A stretch of DNA of 45,097 bases from Fidelibacterota bacterium. Lineage in GTDB: Bacteria > Fidelibacterota > Marinisomatia > Marinisomatales > TCS55. Numbering within the stretch: position 1 is the first letter of the stretch; the number at the start of each line of letters is the position of its first letter. Positions 15,153 to 29,378 of the stretch are shown here, piece after piece. The stretch spans positions 1 to 45,097 of the forward strand of contig JASLML010000008.1 of assembly GCA_030746535.1 (NCBI GenBank), given 5' to 3'. The notes under the pieces were generated by a model. The model saw nothing but the letters and a program-made list of their open reading frames with translations, was not told the origin of the DNA and searched no databases. The position numbers and the translations under genes were made by a program.

Positions 15153-16277
15153 TCAGAAAGTGATTCTCAAGGATGTCTGAATGGTGCGTACGATCAGCAG
15201 CGCATCGGCTCCGCCAACATGCCCTGCCGGATTGAAATTGCCGGTCATTACATCGGCTTGCATAATACCGCGCTCGCTGCACAGCGCCATTGCATTGTAT
15301 GCCGGATGGCTGCTGGGCACATCACTGAATCTGGACGGATTTTCCCCGAAATACCGTGTTTCAAGACCTCCGTCGCGGGTGGCGACAACCAATAGCCTTT
15401 GCACCGCCATTGCGTAATTCGCCCGGTCCACAACGTCATTCGGATAAAATTTCCCATCCGGAAACGGATCCAAAATACCGTAACGCATCATATCTTTCAC
15501 CCATGCTTCGGCCCAATGGCCTTTGGCGTCATTGGGTGTTTGAATTGTTGATTGGGAGGCCATTTGAGAAGGCGTCTGAAATCCCGGGTTTTGCTTGGGC
15601 ATTCGTGCGATCAATTCGCCGATCTTTAATTCTTCTGCAAATAGAACTGCCATGTCAGCGCGGGTTATTTTTTCCTGCAGTGCTACTTTTTTCCCGGCAG
15701 GCGTTCCGGGCATAGCACGCACAATTTTCTGGGATCGCTGCCACTGGTAATCAGCTTTTCCTGCGTATTCGCCTTTCATTTCGACTACGCGGCGGAAATA
15801 GGATTCGGCATCTGCAAAATCAAAATGGTAAAGGTGTGCAACGCCAAACCAGTAAAGTGCGCCTTCATGGTTCTTATTCCGTTTTAATGCTTTTTCGAGA
15901 TAATCCTCTGCTTTATTGAACCATTTCTTCTCCGAATCGCGCATTGTTATCCAGACCCTCGCAGACAGGGCAAGCGCTTCGGGGTCTTTCTTGCCTCTGC
16001 TGGCACATTTGCCGGCATTGCTTTTGGCTTCGCTGTTGTTGCCCAAATGGGCGTGGGCAAGTCCCAATCCGCCGTAGCCAAGCGCAAATTTTCTGTCCAA
16101 ATCCACCGACCGCTCAAAGGATTTGATTGCCTGCATGAAATCGCCGTTATCGATGGCTCGCATACCGGCCTTGTAGTGATATTCGGGTGTGTCTACGTCG
16201 CTTTCTGGTTTCGTGCTGCAGGCCGTTATCATCAGTAGGGAAAGTATAGGTAATGTAAAGATTAAATGTTTTTTCAT
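15153..16277 (-). CDS. TPR and SLH-domain lipoprotein
   Basis: The start at 16277 is preceded by a clear AGAGAGG ribosome-binding site. It begins a lipoprotein signal (MKKHLIFTLPILSLLMITAC) with lipobox ITAC. The product is 374 residues. Residues ~30-200 hold three to four TPR-like helices (FMQAIKSFERSVDLDRKFALGYGGLGLAHAHLGN; KAEDYLEKALKRNKNHEGALYWFGVAHLYHFDFADAESYF). The C-terminal half carries S-layer-homology motifs (ITRADMAVLF, KGHWAEAWVKDMMRYGILDPFPDGKFYPNDVVDRANYAM, FSDVPSSHPAYNAM). SLH domains bind cell-wall polymers in many bacteria. I infer an envelope scaffold. A good terminator follows, and the gene diverges from the CsgG-like cluster, sharing its control region. Confidence 0.88.
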   Translation of the reverse strand: MKKHLIFTLPILSLLMITACSTKPESDVDTPEYHYKAGMRAIDNGDFMQAIKSFERSVDLDRKFALGYGGLGLAHAHLGNNSEAKSNAGKCASRGKKDPEALALSARVWITMRDSEKKWFNKAEDYLEKALKRNKNHEGALYWFGVAHLYHFDFADAESYFRRVVEMKGEYAGKADYQWQRSQKIVRAMPGTPAGKKVALQEKITRADMAVLFAEELKIGELIARMPKQNPGFQTPSQMASQSTIQTPNDAKGHWAEAWVKDMMRYGILDPFPDGKFYPNDVVDRANYAMAVQRLLVVATRDGGLETRYFGENPSRFSDVPSSHPAYNAMALCSERGIMQADVMTGNFNPAGHVGGADALLIVRTIQTSLRITF

Positions 16278-16357
16278 AATAAATACCTCTCTCAGGTTGA
16301 TGTGAAACAATAAGTTAGCTGAAATTATGATGAAATGAAACATAGTTGCACTCCCCG

Positions 16358-16373
16358 TATGACCTGCGTCACA
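16358..16373. promoter_or_regulatory. CRP/FNR-type operator candidate in the divergent control region
   Basis: On the minus strand the site reads TGTGA-N6-TCATA, matching nine of the ten half-site bases of the CRP consensus TGTGA-N6-TCACA. It lies within a longer imperfect inverted repeat, CCGTATGAC/GTCACACGG (16355-16376, 8 of 9 arm bases paired). It is 81 bases upstream of the leftward lipoprotein start and about 91 bases upstream of the rightward gene. No binding data exist. Confidence 0.5.
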
Positions 16374-16386
16374 CGGATCAATGAAT

Positions 16387-16401
16387 CAATGATTATCATT
16401 G
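16387..16401. promoter_or_regulatory. Perfect 7-1-7 dyad, Fur-like operator candidate
   Basis: CAATGAT-T-ATCATTG is a perfect 15-base palindrome. Its 13-base core matches the centre of the classical Fur box exactly. It overlaps the second of two tandem ATCAATGA copies (16377-16392). It lies 63 bases upstream of the rightward gene's ATG. Fur, Zur or another metal regulator could bind; this is inferred from the motif only. Confidence 0.5.
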
Positions 16402-16464
16402 CATCCTGAAAGAGATATAGATAATTTACTCTGCATTCGTGCATCATTACAGAAAGACACACAT

Positions 16465-17595
16465 ATGGTGAAAATAGGAAAACTAAAACTGGCTTTATTG
16501 CTGCTTGCCGCATGTGGCCAAATACTGCTTTCGCAGACGGCCAACGGAACAGGCTACGGCCAGACCAAAGATGCGGCCATCGATCAGGCCAAGCGGGATG
16601 CAGTGGAAGTCGGGCTGGGGGCCTTTATCTCTTCCGAGACAGAGGTAACGGCTACATCCTTTTCGGATAATATTTATTCCAAAGCGCAGGGTTTTGTAAA
16701 GACCTTCAATATCATTTCAGAAAGTCAGGGTCCGGATGGGCTGTGGGAGGTTACTATTGAAGCACAGGTCACTCAGATATTGGATCAGGTAATGCAGGAT
16801 GAAATGGCGCTGCAGACGCTGCTGACGAGCATGAATCGCCCAAGAATCATTTTCCTCGTTAACGAAGATAACCTGATTGATCAAACTGCTTCTGATTTCG
16901 CGGAAACACAGCTTTTGAAAATGTTTTATGATAAAGGGTTTGATGTTGTGGACCGCCAGCTGGTTGCTGCTATGAAAGGTGAACCGGATTATAATCAGGC
17001 ACTTTCCGGGAATGTGGCAGCGGCTGCAAAGATCGCAAGTCAGTTAGGCGCAGAAGTGCTCGTGCTTGGCTCGGCAAAGATTTCTTCCGGCGGGAAAGTG
17101 AAATTTGGCAAACGAGAATCAAATATGTTTTCCGGACAGGCCGATATAAACGGGAAGATCATACGTGTGGACACGGGAGAAATTCTGGCGGTCGTTCCGC
17201 AGGCACGCGGGAAAAAGGTACATATTTCAGAATCTACAGCAGGTACCAATGCCGTAAATGAGGCGGCAGCCGTGCTCGGCAGCGATATTATTCGCCAGCT
17301 GATCGAAAAATGGAGCACGCAACAGTCCAATTTTATCAAGGTTTTTCTTGTCCTGAAAAATGTGGATTTTGGCTCCTACATGGCATTTGAATCATTTTTG
17401 AAAGCACAGACTGTTCCGGGAATCAGGAATGCCTACGCAAAAAGTCTCGATGACGGTGTGGCGGAATTTGAGATTGAATTCGAAGGGAAAGCCGTAAACC
17501 TTGCGATGGGATTAAGCCAAACCTCTCCGGACGGCCTGAGTTTTAAAATTACCGGAATGACCGGTAACCGATTGACAGGGGAAATTGTTCAATAG
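16465..17595 (+). CDS. FlgT/CsgG-like secreted protein
   Basis: The start at 16465 puts a signal peptide first (MVKIGKLKLALLLLAACGQILLSQ); the open frame reaches 16399 but the extra residues are unlike a leader. The 376-residue product opens with an LPP20/FlgT-N-like module (GTGYGQTKDAAIDQAKRDAVEVGLG) around residues 25-110. A CsgG-like module follows (about 125-285: RIIFLVNEDN, FDVVDRQLVAAMK, AAKIASQLGAEVLVLGSA, RVDTGEILAVVPQ), then a C-terminal FlgT-like beta domain. FlgT acts around the flagellar base and CsgG forms an outer-membrane pore, but no flagellar or curli genes are nearby. It is the first gene of the rightward cluster, and the next gene begins 14 bases after its stop. Confidence 0.8.
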   Translation: MVKIGKLKLALLLLAACGQILLSQTANGTGYGQTKDAAIDQAKRDAVEVGLGAFISSETEVTATSFSDNIYSKAQGFVKTFNIISESQGPDGLWEVTIEAQVTQILDQVMQDEMALQTLLTSMNRPRIIFLVNEDNLIDQTASDFAETQLLKMFYDKGFDVVDRQLVAAMKGEPDYNQALSGNVAAAAKIASQLGAEVLVLGSAKISSGGKVKFGKRESNMFSGQADINGKIIRVDTGEILAVVPQARGKKVHISESTAGTNAVNEAAAVLGSDIIRQLIEKWSTQQSNFIKVFLVLKNVDFGSYMAFESFLKAQTVPGIRNAYAKSLDDGVAEFEIEFEGKAVNLAMGLSQTSPDGLSFKITGMTGNRLTGEIVQ

Positions 17596-17609
17596 AGCAG
17601 GAGTGTAGG

Positions 17610-18437
17610 ATGAACAAAATTTTTACAGCTTTAATCGTAACATCGATAGCGGCCGGGCAGGGATATGTCGGACAGCAATTTGGCAATGGATCCATCAATT
17701 ATTCCGATCGGAAAATTCAGGCAACAGGTATCGGTGCCATACCGGATATTGCACTGACTAATGCTGCACAGGCCCGCAGGGCAGCGCTGCGCATAGCAAA
17801 AGTGGATGCCATGCGGAACCTCGTGGAAATTGTTAACGGCATTACTGTAGACAGCGAAACAACGATGAGCGACGCAATGTTCGATGATGTAATTAAAACA
17901 CAGGTAAGGGGCGTTATTCGTGGAGCCGTTCAGATTGGTGATGTAAAATATTTGAGCGACACATCTATAGAGGTTACATACGAAGTTCCGATGAGCGGTA
18001 TATCGGAGATCATGACACCTCCGTCATCGCCTTCTCCAACTGGCGATGTTGTTCCGTCGGGCACACTTGGCAGCGGATTGGCTGCACCTACTACCAGTGC
18101 CGTTACCGGAATCATCATTGATGCCAGAGGCCTTGGTGTCCGCCCTGCCATGTCTCCGCGGCTGCTAGATCAAAATGGCGGTGTGGTGTACGGGCCAAAT
18201 AATTATAACCGGCAATACGCGATTACCAACGGCGTTGCAGGATATTCCAAGACTCCCGAAGCAGCTTCGCAGGATCAGCGCGTAATGGGCAATCCGCTGA
18301 TGGTAAAAGCTGTGGCTACAACAGGAACAAATAAGGCAGACGTGGTGCTGGGGAACTCGGATGTAATGAAAATTAAATCGGCAGATACAAGCCACGGAGT
18401 ACTGAGAGACTGCCGTGTCCTCATATTGCTGGATTGA
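17610..18437 (+). CDS. LPP20-like secreted protein
   Basis: This 275-residue protein starts after a good AGGAG site (14 bases past the previous stop) with a signal peptide (MNKIFTALIVTSIAAGQ). Residues ~30-130 have the LPP20-type pattern AARRAALRIAKVDAMRNLVEIVNGITVDSETTM, written here as QARRAALRIAKVDAMRNLVE, and a beta stretch SIEVTYEVPMSGISEI. A Pro/Ser-rich linker (PPSSPSPTGD) leads to a C-terminal part (ITGIIIDARGLGVRPAMSP, GVVYGPNN) resembling regions seen in other LPP20-containing envelope proteins. It probably works with the FlgT/CsgG-like protein upstream, which has the same kind of N-terminal module. Its exact role is unknown. Confidence 0.8.
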   Translation: MNKIFTALIVTSIAAGQGYVGQQFGNGSINYSDRKIQATGIGAIPDIALTNAAQARRAALRIAKVDAMRNLVEIVNGITVDSETTMSDAMFDDVIKTQVRGVIRGAVQIGDVKYLSDTSIEVTYEVPMSGISEIMTPPSSPSPTGDVVPSGTLGSGLAAPTTSAVTGIIIDARGLGVRPAMSPRLLDQNGGVVYGPNNYNRQYAITNGVAGYSKTPEAASQDQRVMGNPLMVKAVATTGTNKADVVLGNSDVMKIKSADTSHGVLRDCRVLILLD

Positions 18438-18465
18438 ACGCATTAAAAACAAAGGTCACTTGCAC

Positions 18466-19110
18466 ATGAAATATGTAATTAAGCTTTTTCTGGTCATCGT
18501 TAGCCTGGCTGCTGCAGCTTTGGCGCAGGAAGAAGCCATCAATGAGGCGATGGAAAAGGATGATTCAAAGGATCTCAAAATAGGTCAAACAGCTCCCAAA
18601 TGGGCCTTAAAGACCGATCCGGAGACGATCAATTTTGAATTCTTAAGGAAATGGACGGTGGGCAAGGATGAGCGCCTGCTTCGCCCCCAATCCCAACCAG
18701 ACCGCCATGCGGTTCTGATGAGTTTTTTTGCAACTTGGTGTGCCCCGTGCATGAAGGAATTACCCATCCTTGAAGAGGTCTATCAACAATATAAGGATGA
18801 ACAGATCAAGTTTTTCCTGATTGATATTACCGAGGCAACCAGAACAAATCCCGGATATGAGAATATGCCGAAAGCGGGACCCTTCCTTGCGGAAAAGGGC
18901 GTAACCATGGAAATTTTATATGATCTGCGCGGCAAGGTGATGGAAAATTACAATGCCCAGACCTTACCCAGGCTTTTTGTGGTGGATGGATATCAGACGA
19001 TCCGGATGACGCGCAGAGGATTCCATGCCGGAGAAGAAGAAATATTTAAAAGAGAATTATCCGAAATGATAGATATACTGCTGGATGAATTGCCTGAACC
19101 GCAGAAATGA
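18466..19110 (+). CDS. TlpA-like periplasmic thioredoxin-fold protein
   Basis: The start at 18466 gives a signal peptide (MKYVIKLFLVIVSLAAAALA); the frame opens earlier, at 18415, but overlaps the previous gene. The 214-residue product has a thioredoxin fold with active-site C92-A-P-C95 in SFFATWCAPCMKELPILEEV and the cis-Pro region NAQTLPRLFVVDGY. TlpA/ResA-type proteins reduce disulfides or service copper and haem centres outside the cytoplasm. In this cluster it may support the Cys-containing CsgG-like protein or the blue-copper giant downstream; that link is an inference from position. A perfect CRP-like site begins right after its stop. Confidence 0.88.
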   Translation: MKYVIKLFLVIVSLAAAALAQEEAINEAMEKDDSKDLKIGQTAPKWALKTDPETINFEFLRKWTVGKDERLLRPQSQPDRHAVLMSFFATWCAPCMKELPILEEVYQQYKDEQIKFFLIDITEATRTNPGYENMPKAGPFLAEKGVTMEILYDLRGKVMENYNAQTLPRLFVVDGYQTIRMTRRGFHAGEEEIFKRELSEMIDILLDELPEPQK

Positions 19111-19111
19111 T

Positions 19112-19127
19112 TGTGAAGGGCATCACA
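19112..19127. promoter_or_regulatory. Perfect CRP-consensus operator
   Basis: TGTGA-AGGGCA-TCACA matches all ten half-site bases of the CRP/FNR-family consensus TGTGA-N6-TCACA. It lies in the 77-base gap between the TlpA-like gene and the second CsgG-like gene. A possible -10 box, TAAACT (19149-19154), would give a start site near 19161, placing the dyad centre about 41.5 bases upstream, the class II activator position. The -10 assignment is weak; the dyad itself is plain in the sequence. Confidence 0.65.
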
Positions 19128-19187
19128 GAAATTTATGCTAAAACCATGTAAACTAATCTAGAATTGAAAGCAATAGAGGCCGATTTC

Positions 19188-19910
19188 ATGAAAATAACCA
19201 CACAAACATTAACCTCCATCTTGCCAGCTATACTGCTGGTTGGATGGGTCAATGCGCAGGATAAGCCAACAGCTGCTGTGCTTGATTTTGAGGCACGGGG
19301 AATTTCCGCACTGGAAGCCCAGACCCTCACAGACCGCTTCAGTGGCGAATTGGTAAACACCAGTGCCATTATCATGGTAGAGCGGAACCAAATGGATGAA
19401 ATTCTGGATGAGCAGGGATTCCAGCAAAGCGGCTGTACCAGCGCAGAATGTGCGGCTGAGATCGGCGCACTGTTGGGTGTGCAAAAAATGATTTCCGGAT
19501 CCTTCGGAAAGCTGGGTAATACCTATACCATTGAAGCAAAAATTTTCTCAGTAGAAACAGGACAGACAGAACGCGCAGTTAGCAAAACCTACAAAGGTGA
19601 AATTGACGGCCTTTTGGACCAGATCGCATTGGTGGCTTGGGAGCTAATGGGGCTCCAGCCACCGGCGGACCTTATGGCACGCGCCGGAGTAAAACCTCCT
19701 GAACCGGATAAAGTAGAAAAAGAAGGCGGCAGTAACTGGCTCTTATGGACACTTGTCGGCCTTGGTGTTGCAGGCGGCGGAGCTGCAGCGGCCATGGGCG
19801 GAGGCGGTGATGCAGGATCTGATGGTGGCGGCTCCAACGGCGGCGGTAACGGCGGCGGAGGCGGCGGAGGCGGCGGAAGTGAGCTTCCCGAACCACCGGG
19901 CACACCGTAA
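19188..19910 (+). CDS. CsgG-like protein with membrane helix and polyglycine tail
   Basis: The ATG at 19188 has an AGAGG site 9 bases upstream and starts a signal peptide (MKITTQTLTSILPAILLVGWVNAQ); a TTG at 19164 is less likely. The 240-residue product has a CsgG-like fold: PTAAVLDFEARGI, IIMVERNQMDEILDEQGFQQSG, then CTSAEC, GALLGVQKMISGSFGKLG and YTIEAKIFSVETGQ. The CTSAEC pair could form a disulfide or bind metal. A hydrophobic helix (WLLWTLVGLGVAGGGAAAAMG, about 185-205) and a tail of Gly with a few Asp, Ser and Asn follow, ending ELPEPPGTP. It resembles the gene at 4370 in its DRSQL-like motif. The next gene starts 19 bases after its stop. Confidence 0.82.
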   Translation: MKITTQTLTSILPAILLVGWVNAQDKPTAAVLDFEARGISALEAQTLTDRFSGELVNTSAIIMVERNQMDEILDEQGFQQSGCTSAECAAEIGALLGVQKMISGSFGKLGNTYTIEAKIFSVETGQTERAVSKTYKGEIDGLLDQIALVAWELMGLQPPADLMARAGVKPPEPDKVEKEGGSNWLLWTLVGLGVAGGGAAAAMGGGGDAGSDGGGSNGGGNGGGGGGGGGSELPEPPGTP

Positions 19911-19929
19911 CGGTAAGGATGGAGATATA

Positions 19930-22900
19930 ATGATGAAAAAGATAATTACAATCAGTTTATTTTTTGGGCTTGCGCTGCAGGCTCCCCTTCGCGCAACGGA
20001 TAACGTATTGCATGAAGTATCCATTTCAAGTATGTCCTTCAACCCTTCTTACCTATATATCAATGAGGGCGATACTGTAAAGTGGACCAATAACGAAACG
20101 TACACGCATACCGTTAGTTCAGCCTTATTTAGCGGTTCAGGTGATCTTGGTTACGGCGATAGTTATATTCATGTCTTTAGTTCGTACGGCACCTATTCCT
20201 ATTACTGCAATTATCACACTTCCATGTATGGCACCATTGATGTTAGCCCAGGCGGCGGAACGGATGACATAGACATTACCTATCCGGACAGCAACACGGT
20301 ATGGAATGCAGGCAATACCTACACAATTACTTGGAATACCGATTTACCCTCAACGGAAACGGTTAGCTTGGAATTGTATAAAAACGGCACCTCTGTTTAT
20401 AATATAATCGGATCTACAAGCAACAGCGGAAGTTACACCTTTTATGTCCCGGACACCGTTACAACAAGCGACAATTTTCAGATTTATATTTTTCACGGTT
20501 TCAGCGGCACCAGCGACTATAGTGATGATTTTATCATAAACGGGTCTGGCGGTAGTACAGCCACAGAGCTGACAAACGGGCAAGCGGTGACCGGAATATC
20601 AGGTTCAGCCACATCGGAACTGCATTATTACCTGTATGTTCCTAGCGATCAGGATACTCTGAACTTTTCTATTGATCAGGATGCCGGAGGTACCGGCGAT
20701 GCTGATCTATACGTACGCTACGGCAGCGAACCTACAACTGCCGTTTACGACTGTAGGCCTTACTCAAGCAACTATCCTGAAGAATGCGGGTTTTCCAGCC
20801 CCAACGAAGGCTACTGGTATGTTATGCTGAAAGCGTTTAATGGATATACAGGAGTTTCACTTGTTGGTCAATACGGGACCAGCGGCGGAGATTCAACTGA
20901 ATATATAGATGTTACCTATCCGGACAGCAACACGGAATGGAATGCAGGCAATACCTACACAATTACCTGGGATTCGAATCTGAATTTGACCGGCGGACAG
21001 AATGTAAGCTTGTGGTTAAAAAAAGATGGCAGCACTCATTCCAATATAGATCCAGGCACTGATAATGACGGTAGTTACGAATTCACTGTACCAGATACTA
21101 TTTCGACAAGTGGGAATTATCAGGTTGAAATTTACCAATACCAACTGAATGTTATTGGTCTTAGCGATTATTTTACCATTACAGGAAGCGGTGGACTTAC
21201 TGAAGGTGTATATGCGCCAGCGGCAGGTGATACGCTGTATACTGGAGACACCGAAACGATTGCCTGGTATCTTCCCAATGCTAATGTTCCCTATGACGTT
21301 GGAATTTATTTGGATTATAAGGATGAAAATGGGAACTGGCTTACATATGGTACCATTGAAACAGGCGTTTCTGTTACGGATCATGCATGGGAATACACAT
21401 GGAATATTCCTTCGGATATGCCTTCAGATGAATACCATGTTTGGCTCTATAGCGGATCTGGGAATGTTAACAACTATAGTGCTGAATTTTATGTAGAAAA
21501 TACCGGCGGTGGATCCAATTTGTGCGAAGCGGAAATTGAGTATGTGCTTGAAGGTGACGCAAAAGCCTACATCCGCTTTGACGGGCCGCTGGTGGACGGC
21601 ACTTGTGAAGATACTGGATTTTCCGGATATCACCTGTACCGCGAGGATGATCCATCTTGGTATATGGGATTTGGTGTAACAGATAATGGTATATGGCAAA
21701 CGAACCTGACCAATGGCCAAACCTATTGCTGGTATATTACAGCCCTATACGATGATTTTACCCAGGAATCTTCCGCCTCCGTAAGCGTTTGCGGAACGCC
21801 GACAAGCAATCCATCGGTGCAAGTGAGTGGATATATCTCTTATCCTGATAATGCATTCAATCACCCCAGTGGATCATTGGATATAGGTGTATTTATTAAT
21901 CCCACAGCGTGGCCGCCAACAGACGGTTCCATGCCGAATGCATTTACAACGATCAGCCCTGGCGTAGATTTTTCATCAGGTTTCTATTATGAGATTGAAG
22001 TATTTGATTCTGACTATCCCGACTTTTCAGAATATTTCATTGCAGCTGGATTTGATGAAGACGGCGATGGCAATGATGATGCGAAGGGCTATTATTCTGT
22101 TGTTGGATTCCATGATACAGATAATATTGAAGCCAATTCATACGATTTTTCAATTTATCCAACCGGTGGTGGAGGTGGCGGGCCAACCTCAATTACCGTT
22201 ACTTCACCTGGTCAGGGTTATCAGTGGGGTGCCGGAACGGCGGAATATATAGACTGGTCATCTACAACTCCCGATGGTTATGGCTATAATGTGAATATTG
22301 AACTATGGGAAAACAATTTCTATTACCAAGATATCATTCAAGATTATGCCAGCGGTCCAACAGGCGGAAGTTACTACTGGTCGATTCCAGCGGCACAATC
22401 GCCTTCCTCAAATTACCAGATAAAAGTAAAGCATTCGGATTCTATAGTGGAAGGCACAAGCGCTGTTTTCGGAATTAATAGTGGCGGCGGAGGCGGAGGC
22501 GGCAGCATTGATGAAACTTACAACCACAGCTGGACGCTGAATGAATGGCACCATATTGCACTGGAGTATGACGGGTATACAATGTGGCTGTACATTGACG
22601 GAAATAATGTTTCATCTTGGAGTGGAGCTGGAGCTGTTTCTTCTGTTGCTAATACTATGCTGCAAGTCGGATATGGCTTCAATGGTGTCGGCGACATCAT
22701 CCGCATCAGCAATACGGCCCTCTACACCGGAAACAATTTTGATCCATTTACGCAATATTGGGGCGCCAATGCTTCCACGCAACTGTTGTGGCACTGCGAT
22801 GAAAGTAGCGGCAATCAACTCACCGATGAGAGCGGAAATGGATATAACGGTTCTTTTACGAGTGGATCTCCTATCTGGGATACCAACGCCCCCTTGAATG

Positions 22901-25900
22901 GTTCAGGTGGAGGCGGTAGCGGTGATTATTCCTTTAATTTTGGATCTGTATCCCCCGAAGGGGCGGGCGTAGGCTATTTTTCATTCGGCTCAAGCCCCAT
23001 AACATTGGAAATGTTTTTTATGCTCCCAGCAAATCAAAGCAGCTTTGAGTGGTTTTGGATTCAGAATTTGATGTCTTTGAGGTACCAAAGCGGTCAAATT
23101 CAAATGCACTTTGATACCGGCGGCGGAGGAGGAAACGGCACAATTTTCGGAAATGTAAGCCTTAATGAAGACCATCCTTTTGGCCAGGTGCGGCTGGGGC
23201 TGTGGCTTCCGGGCAGCAGTATAGACAACGACCCAGACATTGCTTTGGGCCCGTGGCACGAAAATCCTCCATTTGCAGACGTATCTTTTGAGATTCATGA
23301 TGGCCAGATCGTTGCCAATGACGGACCCTACACAATCGGCGGATGCTTTGATGAAAATAATAACGGCCATTGTGACGATGGTGAACCGGTTGGATTTGCT
23401 CCTGATATTTATACGGATGAAAATGCAGAAGCCACGGGCGTCAATCTGGTGTTATCAAGTTATGAAGGGGAAATATCAGGCACCCTTTCATTTGATATGT
23501 ACGCAATACATACCGGCAATGCCTTTATAGGTGTTTTCTCGCCCGGCGACGATGATAGCTACTGGGCAAACGCAATGTATCACGAAAGTTATGTTGATAT
23601 GTCGTCTGGAGAAGATATTAGTTATGAGCTTCAAAGCTCTCAAATTTCTGATGGCTCAGGTTATAGTATCGCGGCCTTTGTGGATTACGATGATGATGGA
23701 GAGCCCGGCGATCTTGAGCCTTATGTTACCGTTGGAGACATTGAAGTTAGCAGCGGATTCGGTTCAGCCGATATTCTAGTTGCATACGAACATAGCGGAC
23801 ACTTTCAGCTAGAAGCATCTCAAATCAATATGGTTTCATTGGCAGGGGAAACTGTCGATCTGTATCTTGGAATTATGAATGATGGCGGTGGAGGCCCGGT
23901 ATTGATTGATGATATTACCACCCAGCATGGCGAATTTTCGGTAGAATGGTATCCTCTTGGCATTGCACCAAGTTCAAGTGATTTTATCCATCTTAGCATG
24001 AATTTTGCCAGTGCCGGCGAAAGAACGGGCTTGTTACACTTTGGCCTTAAAAACGCGCAGGAGGGATCTCTAGACTATACCTATACGGTAGAAGTATATG
24101 ACCCTGCCGATGCAAGCGTTGAAACAGACACTGCAACAGTTAGCGGTGACGGGTCCTACGATTTGGCTGATGCGAACACCAACTTTGATTTCACAGGCGT
24201 CAGCGGTGACGGCGGAACCATTACTGCAACACTTGTGGATGGCCAATATCCTTCAGGAGATTCATCCGGAGTTGCAGAACGCTATTGGGACATTACTGCC
24301 GACTTTGATTTTACCTCTGCGCAGGTCTGCTTTGATTTGAATCAGCTGGATGCATCAGGTCTTCTGGAAGGCATCAATGATTTTAACAGTTTGGTGATCT
24401 ATTCCCGGCCAAGCTATTCCACGGATGAGTGGATCGAGATCCAAGGTTCTGATTTATCCTATAATGAATTGGAAGGAACCATTTGCGCCAACAATGTATC
24501 GGATTTTAGCCAATGGACGGTCGGCGGCGGAGATAATTTTCTGCCTTCCTATTCCGTTACAACAGATTTGGATGTACTTACCGGTCAGGCCGGGAATGGC
24601 TTGAATGTTACCGCAACCATTACAGGATTGCCGTCTAATTTTATTGCGGCGGTAGAAGTGGAGACTTTTGTTCCGGGAGCCAACAATTGGGCGACAACTA
24701 CTTTGAGTGATGCGGATGGAGATATGACCTACGATGGCATTATACAGGATAATTTGGTTACGCCATCAGGTATGCTTGCTGCTGTAGTTGTGCATGATAC
24801 GTGGAATCGCATTTCATCATCCGATACGGTCAATATACCAGTAGCATTCAATGAAGTGAACTTGGCGCAGACCAGCGGCAATGTTTACAGGATGATTTCA
24901 GCTCCTGGTAATCTGGATGATAAAAGTATTGCAGGGGTAATCGAAGATGAGCTCGGTGGATACGATAATACTGTTTACCGTGTATTCCGCTATAATCCTT
25001 ATAATCCTGTAGATGCGTTGTACGAGGAAAATACAGGACAGTTTACTCCATCATCAGCATTTTGGATCATTACCGCCAGCGATCAAACTGTGCAGGCTGG
25101 CAGCGGAATGTCAACACCGCTCACCAATGTGCCGACCATCACCCTGCAGCCGGGCTGGAACATGATTGCAACGCCCTACAATGCTGATACATATTTAAGT
25201 TCTTTTGAAGTGTTGAGCGGTAGCGTTGAAACGAAAGTGCACCGCTATACAGGAAGTGGATATACAGAAACAACGCAGCTGCAGCCGGGCAACGGCTACT
25301 GGCTGTTTGTGAATGAAGCAGCGCAAATAAAGGTGAAATATCCCCGGCCGGGAAGCAGTAAAGTCATGGCAAAATCGTCAGGCGATCTACCACTCGATTT
25401 TTCTGCAAATATCAGAGCATCGATTGGAAATGCCAGAGATGATGAAAATGCTTTTGGGCTGATAGCAACGGCATCCGATGAATGGGACAGGCTGGATACA
25501 CGTGAACCGCCTGTGATCGGTGAATACATCAGCGTTGCCTTTGACAACCGCGACTGGTCGGATAAAGCTGGTCTTTATAATACCGATATCCAGCCATCCG
25601 GGAATGGCGTAACAGAATGGCCGCTTGTGGTTACCACCAATAAATACGGCGTTGTGAACCTGGATTTTGAATGGCTGACGGCCTTGGATCCCGGCTGGAG
25701 TGTGTATCTTGTTGACCGCGATCTCGGGCTTGCTCATGATCTCAGTGAAGCTTCGCATTATTCCTATGCATCAACGGGATCGGAAAAGGAACGAGCCTTC
25801 GTCATCATTGCCGGAGAAGAAGCGGATGTGACTACCGAAATGGGTAAATATGAACTTATTCCTGATACCTATATGCTTGGGCAGAATATCCCGAATCCGT

Positions 25901-26163
25901 TTAATCCGGTAACATCCATTCCGATTATCCTTGGCGAAGATGCTTTTGTAACTCTATCCGTGTACAATATCCGTGGTGAGGAAGTATCACGCATTCTCGA
26001 TCATCAATCCATGACAAAGGGCCACCATAATTCCATTTGGATGGGAACCGATGCCCGCGGAATGAAGGTCCCGACGGGTGTATATCTCTACCGGCTTGTA
26101 GCCGCTGACAACCTTGGCCGGATGCTATACCAACACACCCGAAAAATGATCATGGTGAAATAA
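19930..26163 (+). CDS. Giant T9SS-sorted protein with N-terminal blue-copper domain
   Basis: The start at 19930 (or 19933) follows a GGATGGAG site and begins a signal peptide; an open frame back to 19753 is the other-frame shadow of the Gly-rich tail. The 2077-residue product starts with a cupredoxin domain (about 25-105) with ligands H60, C93, H96 and M99 (C-x2-H-x2-M, amicyanin-like). Then come two Kre9/Ser-Thr-rich-type beta domains with a pre-peptidase (PPC) domain between them, a third such domain, an FN3-like domain, and a fourth copy further on. Asp-rich stretches such as FDEDGDGNDD and VDYDDDGEPGD may bind calcium. LamG halves lie at 22504-23115. A module shared with the protein at 1-3065 precedes the T9SS sorting domain (QNIPNPFNPVTS...KMIMVK). 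I infer surface exposure; function is unknown. Confidence 0.9.
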   Translation: MMKKIITISLFFGLALQAPLRATDNVLHEVSISSMSFNPSYLYINEGDTVKWTNNETYTHTVSSALFSGSGDLGYGDSYIHVFSSYGTYSYYCNYHTSMYGTIDVSPGGGTDDIDITYPDSNTVWNAGNTYTITWNTDLPSTETVSLELYKNGTSVYNIIGSTSNSGSYTFYVPDTVTTSDNFQIYIFHGFSGTSDYSDDFIINGSGGSTATELTNGQAVTGISGSATSELHYYLYVPSDQDTLNFSIDQDAGGTGDADLYVRYGSEPTTAVYDCRPYSSNYPEECGFSSPNEGYWYVMLKAFNGYTGVSLVGQYGTSGGDSTEYIDVTYPDSNTEWNAGNTYTITWDSNLNLTGGQNVSLWLKKDGSTHSNIDPGTDNDGSYEFTVPDTISTSGNYQVEIYQYQLNVIGLSDYFTITGSGGLTEGVYAPAAGDTLYTGDTETIAWYLPNANVPYDVGIYLDYKDENGNWLTYGTIETGVSVTDHAWEYTWNIPSDMPSDEYHVWLYSGSGNVNNYSAEFYVENTGGGSNLCEAEIEYVLEGDAKAYIRFDGPLVDGTCEDTGFSGYHLYREDDPSWYMGFGVTDNGIWQTNLTNGQTYCWYITALYDDFTQESSASVSVCGTPTSNPSVQVSGYISYPDNAFNHPSGSLDIGVFINPTAWPPTDGSMPNAFTTISPGVDFSSGFYYEIEVFDSDYPDFSEYFIAAGFDEDGDGNDDAKGYYSVVGFHDTDNIEANSYDFSIYPTGGGGGGPTSITVTSPGQGYQWGAGTAEYIDWSSTTPDGYGYNVNIELWENNFYYQDIIQDYASGPTGGSYYWSIPAAQSPSSNYQIKVKHSDSIVEGTSAVFGINSGGGGGGGSIDETYNHSWTLNEWHHIALEYDGYTMWLYIDGNNVSSWSGAGAVSSVANTMLQVGYGFNGVGDIIRISNTALYTGNNFDPFTQYWGANASTQLLWHCDESSGNQLTDESGNGYNGSFTSGSPIWDTNAPLNGSGGGGSGDYSFNFGSVSPEGAGVGYFSFGSSPITLEMFFMLPANQSSFEWFWIQNLMSLRYQSGQIQMHFDTGGGGGNGTIFGNVSLNEDHPFGQVRLGLWLPGSSIDNDPDIALGPWHENPPFADVSFEIHDGQIVANDGPYTIGGCFDENNNGHCDDGEPVGFAPDIYTDENAEATGVNLVLSSYEGEISGTLSFDMYAIHTGNAFIGVFSPGDDDSYWANAMYHESYVDMSSGEDISYELQSSQISDGSGYSIAAFVDYDDDGEPGDLEPYVTVGDIEVSSGFGSADILVAYEHSGHFQLEASQINMVSLAGETVDLYLGIMNDGGGGPVLIDDITTQHGEFSVEWYPLGIAPSSSDFIHLSMNFASAGERTGLLHFGLKNAQEGSLDYTYTVEVYDPADASVETDTATVSGDGSYDLADANTNFDFTGVSGDGGTITATLVDGQYPSGDSSGVAERYWDITADFDFTSAQVCFDLNQLDASGLLEGINDFNSLVIYSRPSYSTDEWIEIQGSDLSYNELEGTICANNVSDFSQWTVGGGDNFLPSYSVTTDLDVLTGQAGNGLNVTATITGLPSNFIAAVEVETFVPGANNWATTTLSDADGDMTYDGIIQDNLVTPSGMLAAVVVHDTWNRISSSDTVNIPVAFNEVNLAQTSGNVYRMISAPGNLDDKSIAGVIEDELGGYDNTVYRVFRYNPYNPVDALYEENTGQFTPSSAFWIITASDQTVQAGSGMSTPLTNVPTITLQPGWNMIATPYNADTYLSSFEVLSGSVETKVHRYTGSGYTETTQLQPGNGYWLFVNEAAQIKVKYPRPGSSKVMAKSSGDLPLDFSANIRASIGNARDDENAFGLIATASDEWDRLDTREPPVIGEYISVAFDNRDWSDKAGLYNTDIQPSGNGVTEWPLVVTTNKYGVVNLDFEWLTALDPGWSVYLVDRDLGLAHDLSEASHYSYASTGSEKERAFVIIAGEEADVTTEMGKYELIPDTYMLGQNIPNPFNPVTSIPIILGEDAFVTLSVYNIRGEEVSRILDHQSMTKGHHNSIWMGTDARGMKVPTGVYLYRLVAADNLGRMLYQHTRKMIMVK
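20275..20334 (+). repeat. 60-base internal repeat, copy 1
   Basis: This copy encodes ITYPDSNTVWNAGNTYTITW at the start of the first Kre9-like domain. It matches the copy at 20911-20970 at 57 of 60 bases, 636 bases (212 codons) away and in frame. Confidence 0.9.
20911..20970 (+). repeat. 60-base internal repeat, copy 2
   Basis: This copy encodes VTYPDSNTEWNAGNTYTITW at the start of the second Kre9-like domain. The rest of the two domains has diverged much further than this block. Confidence 0.9.
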
Positions 26164-26167
26164 CCGC

Positions 26168-26932
26168 TTGGCTTCTGCGCAAAATTCACATTTGACATAT
26201 TTGAAATCGGCTTTGCTAACCTGCGTCATTCTTTTGGCGCAGGTTAGTGCTGCTGAATTTGGCAAGATTAGTCTCCCGCTCGGTATGGTTGAGGTAAAAT
26301 CAGGAGATGCGGACTGGATTCGCGCCAAGCCTAAAATGCCAATCAATGAAAATGATTTTGTTCGCACAAAGGCTAAATCCCGTTGTGAAATTACCCTCAC
26401 CGGGGGCGGCAAAGTACGCATCGGTGAAAATTCAGAATTGGAAATAACGGCCGCCAGCGTAAAGCCTATGACAAAGGATTTCTCCGCAAATCTGAATAAA
26501 GGGAATGTATGGGTGGCAGCCAAGGCAGCATTCGGCGAAAAAAAGAGCGTTGCCATTCGCACTCCAACCGCTGTTGCAGCAATTCGCGGTACAAAATACA
26601 GGGCCACCGCTGGCGATGACGAAAGTTCTGTGCTGGTGTATGATGGAAAAGTGGACGTAAATGCAGCTAAAAATATTTCCGAAGAGCGGAAGGAAAAACG
26701 CAAAGGATTCGTGCCGGGGGGCCTAAATCCGAATAAACCCAAATTTACCTTAGGCCCGGTGACCGAAGTTTCCGGACCGTATGAAGTTACGCTTGAAGAC
26801 TGGATCAGCCTTGTGGAGGGAATGCAGATCAATGTCCGTAAAGACGGCAAATACCATATGTTTAAGTTTGATCAGTCTGTGGATGGCGAAGATGACTTCG
26901 TAAAGTGGAATCAGGACCTGGATTCCGAATAG
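26168..26932 (+). CDS. FecR-domain secreted protein
   Basis: This product of up to 254 residues has a FecR domain: GMVEVKSGDADWIRAKPKM, FVRTKAKSRCEITLTGGGKVRIGENSEL, then the hallmark AIRTPTAVAAIRGTKYRA and SVLVYDGKVDV. No ATG lies before the domain. TTG codons at 26168, 26192 and 26201 are possible starts, and the one at 26201 gives a neat signal peptide (MKSALLTCVILLAQVSAA). FecR domains are usually periplasmic sensors or anti-sigma partners, but no sigma factor lies beside this one. The next gene, a CHASE2 cyclase, begins 45 bases on, so the pair may sense an envelope signal together. It starts 4 bases after the giant gene's stop. Confidence 0.85.
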   Translation: MASAQNSHLTYLKSALLTCVILLAQVSAAEFGKISLPLGMVEVKSGDADWIRAKPKMPINENDFVRTKAKSRCEITLTGGGKVRIGENSELEITAASVKPMTKDFSANLNKGNVWVAAKAAFGEKKSVAIRTPTAVAAIRGTKYRATAGDDESSVLVYDGKVDVNAAKNISEERKEKRKGFVPGGLNPNKPKFTLGPVTEVSGPYEVTLEDWISLVEGMQINVRKDGKYHMFKFDQSVDGEDDFVKWNQDLDSE

Positions 26933-26977
26933 CAGTTTCCGCTTACCTTACGTTTCACTTTTTCTTATTTTCCAATC

Positions 26978-29284
26978 ATGTCTGACCTTCTAAAGCGCGT
27001 TTGCATTGGTGCAGTCATTGGGCTTGCAATGGCTCTTTTCGTTGGATTTGGCACGCAGGAAATCCCGTTTCTGAAAAATTTGCTCGATGGGTACGAGTAC
27101 TTATCTTACGATTCCCGCATGAAAGCCAAGGTCGCCGGTGTGGAGGAGCAATCCATCGAAGATGTGATCATCATTGATATTGATCAAAATTCGGTGGCGG
27201 CACCGGAAGACGGTGGACTCGGCAATTACAAGGATTGGCCGCACGCTGTGCATGGACAATTGATAGAATCCGTGTCCATGGGGAACCCGAAAGCCCTTCT
27301 GTTTGATATCATTTTTGATCCTGAGAATACCGATAATTATTTCCTTTTTTCCGATTTGATTTCTGAACACGATTTCACTACTAATGAAATGGTGAACCGT
27401 GCCAATCATTTTCTGATGAGCAGAAATCCGTATTCATTCATTGATCAGACAGCATTCACCCAAAAAGCATACCATGCTCTGGTTTTTGAAGAAGAAGACA
27501 GTCTGAATTTTCTCTATAAAATGGACACAGAACCGCAGGGTTATGATTACGAAAGGCACTTGATCTACGGAATTCCTAAGGAAACAGCGGAACGATTGCC
27601 AACTGCGGACAGAATTGGGAATACCTATGTAGAATTGCTATCTGCATCCGTAGGCGCCGGGAGTGCAAATTTCCCTCAAGACGCTGACGGCATTATCCGG
27701 AGAGCACCAACTGCGATCTATTTTGAAGGCCCAGAGCACGTCTATCCGAGCCTTGTTATGTCAGCTGCGATTGATGTCCTGGGGATCAAGAAAAACGGCG
27801 GATTTGATTATGATTTTGACAATAACGTTCTCAGGCTGATAGATACGACGGATACGGTAGTAAGGGAAATTCCGATTGATGACAATGGCCGCATGTTTGT
27901 GAATTATTATGGTCCGTTCAAAACATTTTACTATTTACCGTACAGTTATTGCATTGATCCAAATCTTGCGGAATACTTTGATGACAAGGTAGCGTTAGTC
28001 GGCGCATCTTTGCCGGGATTGATGGATTTGCGGAACACGCCGGTTCAGGAAACTTTCGCTGGTGTCGAGGTGCATGCAAACGTAATGCACAGCATTTTAC
28101 AAAATCAGTTTATTCAGCCCACATCCAAAACAACAAATCTGATCATTATCCTGATTGTTGCCATCATATTGGGGATTACGGTAAGTATTCCGACCAAACC
28201 GCTTTACACCCTTCCGGCACCGCTGATCGGAATTGTTGCATGGGTTCTGTTTACATACACGCAGTTTTTATCAGAATTGGTCATGTGGGAGATTGTCCGC
28301 CCGTCAATCAGTATGGCCGGCACATATTTGGGGATATTTCTCTATAATTTTCTTATCGTGGAAAAAGACAAACGCTTTCTGAAAAATACATTTGGAACGT
28401 ATATATCGCCTGAGTTGATCGATCAAATGTATGATAATAAAGAAGAACCGCAGCTTGGGGGAAACGAAGGGTATCACACGGCTTTTTTTACGGATATTCA
28501 GAGTTTCTCCGGCTTTTCAGAAAAACTGTCTGCATCCGATTTGGTAGAACTTCTGAATGATTATTTGACCGAAATGACGGATATTCTATTAGACAATAAA
28601 GGTACGTTGGATAAATACATCGGCGATGCCATTGTAGCATTTTACGGTGCACCCGCACCTGTGGACGATCATGAATACTGGGCATGTTTAACAGCAGTCA
28701 AAATGCAGGATCGCTTAGCAGAGCTACGGGAAAAATGGCAGTCTGAGGGAGACCGCTGGCCAGAGATTGTACATAACATGCAGAACAGGATCGGAATTAA
28801 TACAGGCCAGATGGTGACCGGGAATATGGGATCCACAATGCGAATGAATTACACCATGATGGGCGATACGGTCAATCTTGCCGCTCGGCTCGAAGCATCT
28901 GCGAAACAGTACGGTGTTTATATTCAGGTGGCAGAGGAATCCTACAAGGCCTGCAAAGATAAATTTATCTGGCGGGATTTGGATTTTGTCATTGTCATGG
29001 GAAAAACAGAACCTGCGCAGGTGTTTGAGCTGATCGCAGAAAAAGATAATATGCCGAAAGGATATGATAAACTTCTGCCGGCTTACCATGAGGCGGTGAA
29101 ATTGTACCGAAGTCAGGAATGGCAAAAAGCCATAGAAGCATTTAAGGCATCCGACGAGTTGGAAGATATGTTTCCGGGCAGGAAGACAAATCCAAGCAGA
29201 ATTTATATTCCAAGGTGCGAACACTATCTTGAAAATCCTCCGGGAGATGATTGGGACGGCTCATGGGCGCTTACAAAAAAGTAG
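26978..29284 (+). CDS. CHASE2-domain class III adenylate cyclase
   Basis: This 768-residue membrane protein has one N-terminal membrane helix, an extracytoplasmic CHASE2 sensor (about 30-385: VIIIDIDQNSVAAPEDGG, DDKVALVGASLPGLMDLRNTP), three membrane helices (about 385-465) and a cytoplasmic class III cyclase domain. Catalytic features are present: metal-binding D506 (FFTDIQSFSGFS) and D550 (KYIGDAIVAFYGAP), base-selecting K546, and N633 and R637 (GDTVNLAARLE). The Thr in YTMMGD instead of Asp marks class IIIb, a group that includes bicarbonate-responsive enzymes. The product is predicted to be cAMP. A C-terminal tail resembles a TPR-like helical pair. It is the last gene before the terminator at 29347. 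Confidence 0.95.
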   Translation: MSDLLKRVCIGAVIGLAMALFVGFGTQEIPFLKNLLDGYEYLSYDSRMKAKVAGVEEQSIEDVIIIDIDQNSVAAPEDGGLGNYKDWPHAVHGQLIESVSMGNPKALLFDIIFDPENTDNYFLFSDLISEHDFTTNEMVNRANHFLMSRNPYSFIDQTAFTQKAYHALVFEEEDSLNFLYKMDTEPQGYDYERHLIYGIPKETAERLPTADRIGNTYVELLSASVGAGSANFPQDADGIIRRAPTAIYFEGPEHVYPSLVMSAAIDVLGIKKNGGFDYDFDNNVLRLIDTTDTVVREIPIDDNGRMFVNYYGPFKTFYYLPYSYCIDPNLAEYFDDKVALVGASLPGLMDLRNTPVQETFAGVEVHANVMHSILQNQFIQPTSKTTNLIIILIVAIILGITVSIPTKPLYTLPAPLIGIVAWVLFTYTQFLSELVMWEIVRPSISMAGTYLGIFLYNFLIVEKDKRFLKNTFGTYISPELIDQMYDNKEEPQLGGNEGYHTAFFTDIQSFSGFSEKLSASDLVELLNDYLTEMTDILLDNKGTLDKYIGDAIVAFYGAPAPVDDHEYWACLTAVKMQDRLAELREKWQSEGDRWPEIVHNMQNRIGINTGQMVTGNMGSTMRMNYTMMGDTVNLAARLEASAKQYGVYIQVAEESYKACKDKFIWRDLDFVIVMGKTEPAQVFELIAEKDNMPKGYDKLLPAYHEAVKLYRSQEWQKAIEAFKASDELEDMFPGRKTNPSRIYIPRCEHYLENPPGDDWDGSWALTKK

Positions 29285-29346: not shown

Positions 29347-29378
29347 GGCCGACCTTTCCTTACAGGTCGGCCTTTTTT
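29347..29378 (+). terminator. Rho-independent terminator between the cyclase gene and carA
   Basis: GGCCGACCT (29347-29355) pairs perfectly with AGGTCGGCC (29364-29372) across an eight-base loop, followed by six T. It ends 18 bases before carA. A TATAAT-like box (29380-29385) directly follows the T-run. It could end the upstream operon, or act as an attenuator for carA if transcripts begin upstream of it. Confidence 0.92.

Follow-up and report, generated by a model that had tools for sequence, protein, structure and literature searches.

Two CRP-type sites in a gene cluster of a Fidelibacterota bacterium are best read as operators of a CRP-family activator common to the order. The activator would switch on a surface-protein operon whose last gene encodes a CHASE2 adenylate cyclase, and this enzyme would make the activator's presumed ligand, resulting in positive feedback gated through CHASE2. 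We place the probability of this reading at roughly 0.6. Marinimicrobia are an abundant marine phylum that is almost entirely uncultured, and a literature search found no paper on cAMP or CRP regulation in the group and nothing direct on a positive loop between a cyclase and CRP. The reading offers a specific, testable feedback circuit that links a surface operon to second-messenger production, and a promoter grammar (a TANNNT -10 element spaced 29.5 bp from the CRP box) from which regulons could be predicted across the order.

Cluster layout and the two sites

The window, that is, the whole stretch of DNA analysed (45,097 nucleotides), is contig C73 of a 1.47 Mb genome assembly that is 85% complete. 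Its relevant features are as follows.

15153–16343, minus strand: divergent gene for a TPR and S-layer-homology (SLH) protein (Pfam SLH/TPR)
16358–16373, plus strand: CRP-type site of the first gap (gap1), TATGACCTGCGTCACA, 9/10 half-site bases
16399–16427, plus strand: inferred gap1 promoter, TTGCAT-N17-TAATTT, hexamers and spacing conserved in 35 regions
16465–17595, plus strand: secreted protein weakly similar to CsgG, first cluster gene (likely ATG 16465)
17610–18437, plus strand: secreted protein, family unassigned, adjacency to neighbours conserved
18466–19110, plus strand: TlpA-like thioredoxin-fold protein (Pfam Redoxin/AhpC-TSA)
19112–19127, plus strand: perfect CRP-type site of the second gap (gap2), TGTGAAGGGCATCACA, 10/10 half-site bases
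19149–19154, plus strand: inferred -10 element TAAACT, starting 29.5 bp from the gap2 centre
19188–19910, plus strand: CsgG/LpoB-like protein (Pfam; ATG 19188)
19930–26163, plus strand: giant secreted protein with cupredoxin, PPC, Kre9/KNH, laminin-G and C-terminal FlgD-Ig-type domains (Pfam; ATG 19930)
26168–26932, plus strand: FecR-domain protein (Pfam FecR, 4.7e-16)
26978–29284, plus strand: CHASE2 class IIIb adenylate cyclase (Pfam CHASE2, 8.8e-41; Guanylate_cyc, 2.5e-22)
29347–29372, plus strand: intrinsic terminator closing the cluster before carA (9-pair stem and T-tract)

The first-pass annotation had read all ten CRP half-site bases at gap2 and nine of ten at gap1, and both readings are correct. 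It had also placed both sites in intergenic DNA of one rightward cluster. This is accurate for gap2, which lies between the stop codon of the TlpA-like gene (19110) and the ATG of the CsgG-like gene. The gap1 site is intergenic too, but it does not simply precede the rightward cluster. It sits in a divergent promoter region, which the first cluster gene shares with the leftward TPR/SLH gene (likely ATG 16277, with a lipoprotein-like signal), and this divergent arrangement is kept in relatives.

From 16465 onward, the seven genes of the cluster are colinear and separated by gaps of at most 77 bp, the largest being the one that holds the perfect site. The gene at 17610–18437 has no Pfam match, and the start of the FecR gene is uncertain, with a TTG near 26201 giving a signal peptide. 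No strong plus-strand terminator was found inside the cluster, while the strong one after the cyclase is the best in the region. Its hairpin is the same in the congener G002 and similar in G011 and G022, and a simple stem search detects a terminator 3' of the cyclase in only 5 of 28 relatives. The first gene has an orthologue in 41 of 61 genomes. Wherever it and the cyclase were found on one contig (G002, G004, G005, G006, G009, G011, G027, G034, G045 and G058), they have the same order and strand, 8–25 kb apart. Conserved order favours the operon reading, while distances of this size in other genera make a single transcript uncertain and count against it.

The same layout bears on a different account, in which the sites are functional and a promoter of its own drives most transcription of the cyclase, so that sites and cyclase are merely co-located in a conserved surface-protein neighbourhood. 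We consider this improbable: the 8–11 kb from the sites to the cyclase (more in other genera) and a scan of clusters that found no class II element directly ahead of either FecR or the cyclase would fit it, but the short gaps running from the first gene and the position of the only strong terminator, right after the cyclase, speak for transcription through to the end.

Motif counts by themselves are weak evidence, barely above chance. The window holds one perfect match against 0.07 expected (a count reached in 7 of 100 shuffles), three matches with at most one mismatch against 1.28 expected (12 of 100 shuffles), and 12 with at most two mismatches against 17.7 expected, so that shuffles are not exceeded at this threshold. 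Genome-wide, where the regulon scans were pattern searches, 29 matches with at most one mismatch compare with 19 for the reversed pattern. The significance of the sites therefore lies in their position, conservation and promoter geometry rather than in their number. That both are chance matches is hardly credible: the near-match counts in the window do not rise above shuffles at up to two mismatches, but it is contradicted by the conservation of gap1 in 40 of 41 regions and by a fixed promoter geometry.

Conservation and promoter geometry

CRP of E. coli binds TGTGA-N6-TCACA sites and activates from centres at -41.5 (class II) or about -61.5 (class I). The first-pass annotation had made conservation among relatives with the same cluster a check on its proposal, and conservation is indeed found, order-wide for gap1, and for gap2 fully inside the genus and partially beyond.

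For gap1, the comparison covered 41 orthologous divergent regions across the order (the genome studied and its relatives). A site with at most two mismatches occurs in 40 of these, against 3 of 41 for the reversed pattern and a shuffle mean of 7.5, and one with at most one mismatch in 22, against 0.6 in shuffles; the regions are related by descent, so these counts are not independent. Alignment gives near-invariant half-sites with variable flanks, the core half-site columns carrying 1.7–2.0 bits and the adjoining columns little information. The order-wide consensus is TTTGATNNANATCACA, whose left half nearly always departs from the ideal at one or two bases.

Downstream of the site, a promoter of the form TTG-N3-N17-TAATTT recurs across relatives. 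In the genome studied, its start would fall near 16434, which puts the centre of the CRP site at about -68.5. The corresponding distance is -58.5 or -60.5 in most genomes, -68.5 or -70.5 in five, the genome studied among them, and -50.5 in one; in two further genomes the nearest site by score lies at -85.5 and another lies 26 bp closer. This placement resembles the position of a class I activator, judging from predicted starts. The site studied here lies 8 bp further upstream of its predicted promoter than those of its congeners, which counts against the preferred reading. Overlapping the predicted -35 element, positions 16388–16400 (AATGATTATCATT) form a perfect Fur-box-like core, found with one mismatch in G001 and G017. 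Fur homologues are present in all three congeners, and iron input at this promoter is possible.

Conservation of gap2 is narrower. The genus comprises three species (the genome studied and the congeners G001 and G002), and the ten half-site bases are invariant in all three while spacer and flanks vary. Beyond the genus, the site is perfect in a single other genome and degenerate or absent elsewhere, which weighs against the preferred reading. TAAACT stands exactly 29.5 bp from the site centre in all three species. If its first base is taken as -12, the centre lies at -41.5, the class II position, and transcription would begin near 19161.

The same spacing recurs beyond gap2. TANNNT is found at 29.5 bp in 19 of 27 intergenic sites, whereas the average across offsets is about 1.4. 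It is found at exactly this distance in all 12 sites of three promoter families, namely gap2 (all three species), a secreted-protein gene (perfect sites in the same three species) and a lipoprotein gene beside a second CHASE2 cyclase (six genomes), and likewise in all seven crp promoters that have a site. Ahead of the CsgG gene, a site with at most two mismatches and a -10 element at 29.5 bp occur together in 9 of 30 regions, against a mean of 0.4 at other offsets. These results favour an activator acting from a class II position.

Further sites were seen in passing. In genus g4, the gap2 element (L131, L134, L136, L144 and L157) reads TGTGTTC-N2-GCGCACT, again with 29.5-bp spacing; this variant perhaps co-evolved or is bound by a paralogue. 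The second perfect site of the genome studied (L004 1501–1516; G000:C1:32685) precedes the secreted-protein gene, with class II spacing kept in G001 and G002. Two tandem CRP-type sites 28 bp apart (L182 501–544; G000:C35) lie before a gene for a secreted EF-hand-like protein.

The regulator and its presumed ligand

The CRP-family protein supposed by the first-pass annotation is present in the genus and nearly all relatives, and missing from the assembly studied, at an assembly gap. A CRP-type helix-turn-helix (HTH_Crp_2) was detected in 52 of 61 genomes, both congeners included, and congeners and most relatives combine it with a cNMP-binding domain in one protein of about 230 residues. The genomes at least 90% complete in which it was not found (G050, G054 and G060) also have no first cluster gene, a co-absence that favours the preferred reading. 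A profile search of the 85%-complete assembly studied found no CRP with a helix-turn-helix, which weighs on the other side and at first suggested a genome with no CRP at all. Synteny pointed to another explanation. The match of the 20-kb region around the crp gene of G002 to the genome studied breaks off 40 bp short of the end of contig C19 and resumes at base 2 of C65. The crp gene thus falls in the stretch missing between the two contigs, which indicates an assembly gap and not a shown loss, and the strain itself probably carries the gene.

The genome studied does have three cNMP-binding proteins, which were rejected as the DNA-binding partner because they lack a helix-turn-helix. One is a HEAT-repeat protein with a C-terminal cNMP-binding domain (L001 55–1812; G000:C17). 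The other two stand alone (L003 1408–1917 and L002 1390–1929; G000:C55), one directly 3' of a K+-channel/TrkA gene, the other with an AI-2E-type transporter gene as its neighbour, and are possible non-transcriptional targets of cAMP.

Alignment of the orthologues with E. coli CRP, whose sequence was entered by hand, shows that the phosphate-binding cassette (G71, E72, R82 and S83) is kept in all 14 aligned orthologues, as are, in the orthologues, the residues that read TGTGA (R180, E181 and R185). Both results favour the preferred reading. At the adenine contacts T127-S128, by contrast, all 14 have Ser-Asp, which counts against it. In 7 of the 14 relatives tested, a perfect TGTGA-N6-TCACA precedes the crp gene itself. 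Sites with class II geometry at crp tie the motif to this regulator, which is the usual form of comparative evidence.

By sequence, the closest solved CRP-family chain is PDB 4ev0, which we take to be TTHB099 of Thermus, and the next-best include GlxR, M. tuberculosis CRP and Clr. TTHB099 binds DNA without cAMP and is effector-independent (PMC7662524), which is a point against cAMP as the ligand here, and other cAMP-independent CRPs are documented (PMC12040651, PMC7662524). The TTHB099 motif is of the TGT(A/g)n(t/c)c type, unlike the TGTGA half-sites of the cluster. Where TTHB099 and DdrI have an Arg-Glu pair that blocks the pocket (PMC12937710), alignments read by eye give Lys-Glu in the orthologues, as in GlxR and M. 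tuberculosis CRP. The pair had been considered as a marker of cAMP independence, and on this reading it does not discriminate.

These affinities raise the prospect that operators and activator are as proposed, with a CRP that needs no ligand, as is the case for TTHB099, DdrI and P. gingivalis Crp, or that answers to another effector. The operon would then be CRP-activated without feedback, and cAMP from the cyclase would act elsewhere, for example on the cNMP-domain proteins by the K+ channel and the AI-2E-type transporter. We judge this unlikely, if well short of negligible. Its case is the kinship with 4ev0, the Ser-Asp at the adenine contacts, the documented precedents and the three cNMP-domain proteins that have no DNA-binding domain. 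It is weakened by the intact phosphate-binding cassette, unlike that of two divergent CRP-fold proteins in the same family of genomes, by the presence of GlxR, M. tuberculosis CRP and Clr among the next-best chains, and by the wide occurrence of a CHASE2-cyclase relative (56 of 61 genomes) and of a CRP-type helix-turn-helix (52 of 61).

The cyclase and the proposed loop

The last gene encodes a class IIIb adenylate cyclase with CHASE2, as the first-pass annotation had stated. An N-terminal match covers profile positions 13–256 of 257 in CHASE2, and the class III domain keeps the full catalytic set (two metal-binding Asp, the substrate Lys, Thr replacing Asp, and the transition-state Asn and Arg), a T/N/R motif that fits class IIIb. 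Its segments FTDI, DKYIGDA and NYTMMGDTVNLAAR line up with the PDB 1wc1 cyclase, and alignment with CyaB (3r5g), CyaC and 1wc1 shows the class III catalytic residues retained, with the class IIIb Thr. The nearest relative of the protein (JAAZYX010000003.1) is 89% identical.

Under the preferred reading, the activator would act on the divergent promoter of the TPR-SLH gene and the first cluster gene (gap1) from a class I-like position. From -41.5, it would act as a class II activator on the promoter of the unit comprising CsgG, the giant secreted protein, FecR and the CHASE2 cyclase (gap2), and from the same position it would also switch on its own gene in many relatives. As the unit ends with the cyclase gene, just before the terminator, activator bound to cAMP would raise the level of the enzyme producing its presumed ligand, closing a positive loop whose gain would be set by periplasmic input to CHASE2, and perhaps to FecR as well. 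The cAMP circuit suggested at first pass gains support from promoter spacing, the sites at crp and the terminator after the cyclase; what we infer is that this CRP needs cAMP, that its activity reaches a cyclase 8–11 kb downstream of the sites, and in which direction and how strongly the feedback acts. An order-wide double positive loop, in which cAMP-CRP drives crp as well as the surface operon, and the CHASE2 cyclase at the operon's end, beside a FecR protein, makes the ligand, is a more tentative proposal that we rate somewhat below even odds. It might form a bistable switch by which the cell builds its surface in answer to a periplasmic signal.

Several known systems offer comparisons. E. 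coli CRP shares the TGTGA-N6-TCACA motif, the recognition residues and the geometry of -41.5 and about -61.5, but it represses the class I cyclase gene cyaA, whereas the site here precedes a class III cyclase and is placed for activation. GlxR of Corynebacterium, with the cyclase CyaB, and M. tuberculosis CRP are near neighbours of the regulator by sequence, and neither group is known to have a cyclase at the end of a surface operon that follows a class II site of the regulator. In C. glutamicum, the membrane cyclase CyaB supplies the ligand of GlxR (PMC7026483).

The closest likeness in make-up is to the Clr/CHASE2 cyclase pathway of Sinorhizobium meliloti (CyaD1, CyaD2, CyaK, NsrA and cyaF2), which also joins a CRP-family activator, CHASE2 cyclases, and FecR and TPR proteins. 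Its targets include one FecR-domain protein and one TPR protein, and the cyclase gene cyaF2 has a Clr-binding site (PMC5498481, PMC13001267). S. meliloti differs in belonging to another phylum and in having a Clr box resembling TGTTN8AACA, whereas here the FecR protein, the CHASE2 cyclase and the surface genes with CRP sites lie in one cluster, conserved order-wide. The echo suggests that CHASE2, FecR, TPR and a CRP-family regulator may form a recurring module.

A second CHASE2 cyclase paralogue was considered as a CRP-driven gene and rejected, since the site, which occurs in genera g1 and g4 only, lies 3' of that cyclase, before the lipoprotein gene. The paralogue was not found in the assembly studied. 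In g1 and g4, the lipoprotein gene beside it has a perfect CRP-type site with class II spacing (L164 1395–1410, L165 2393–2408 and L289–L292).
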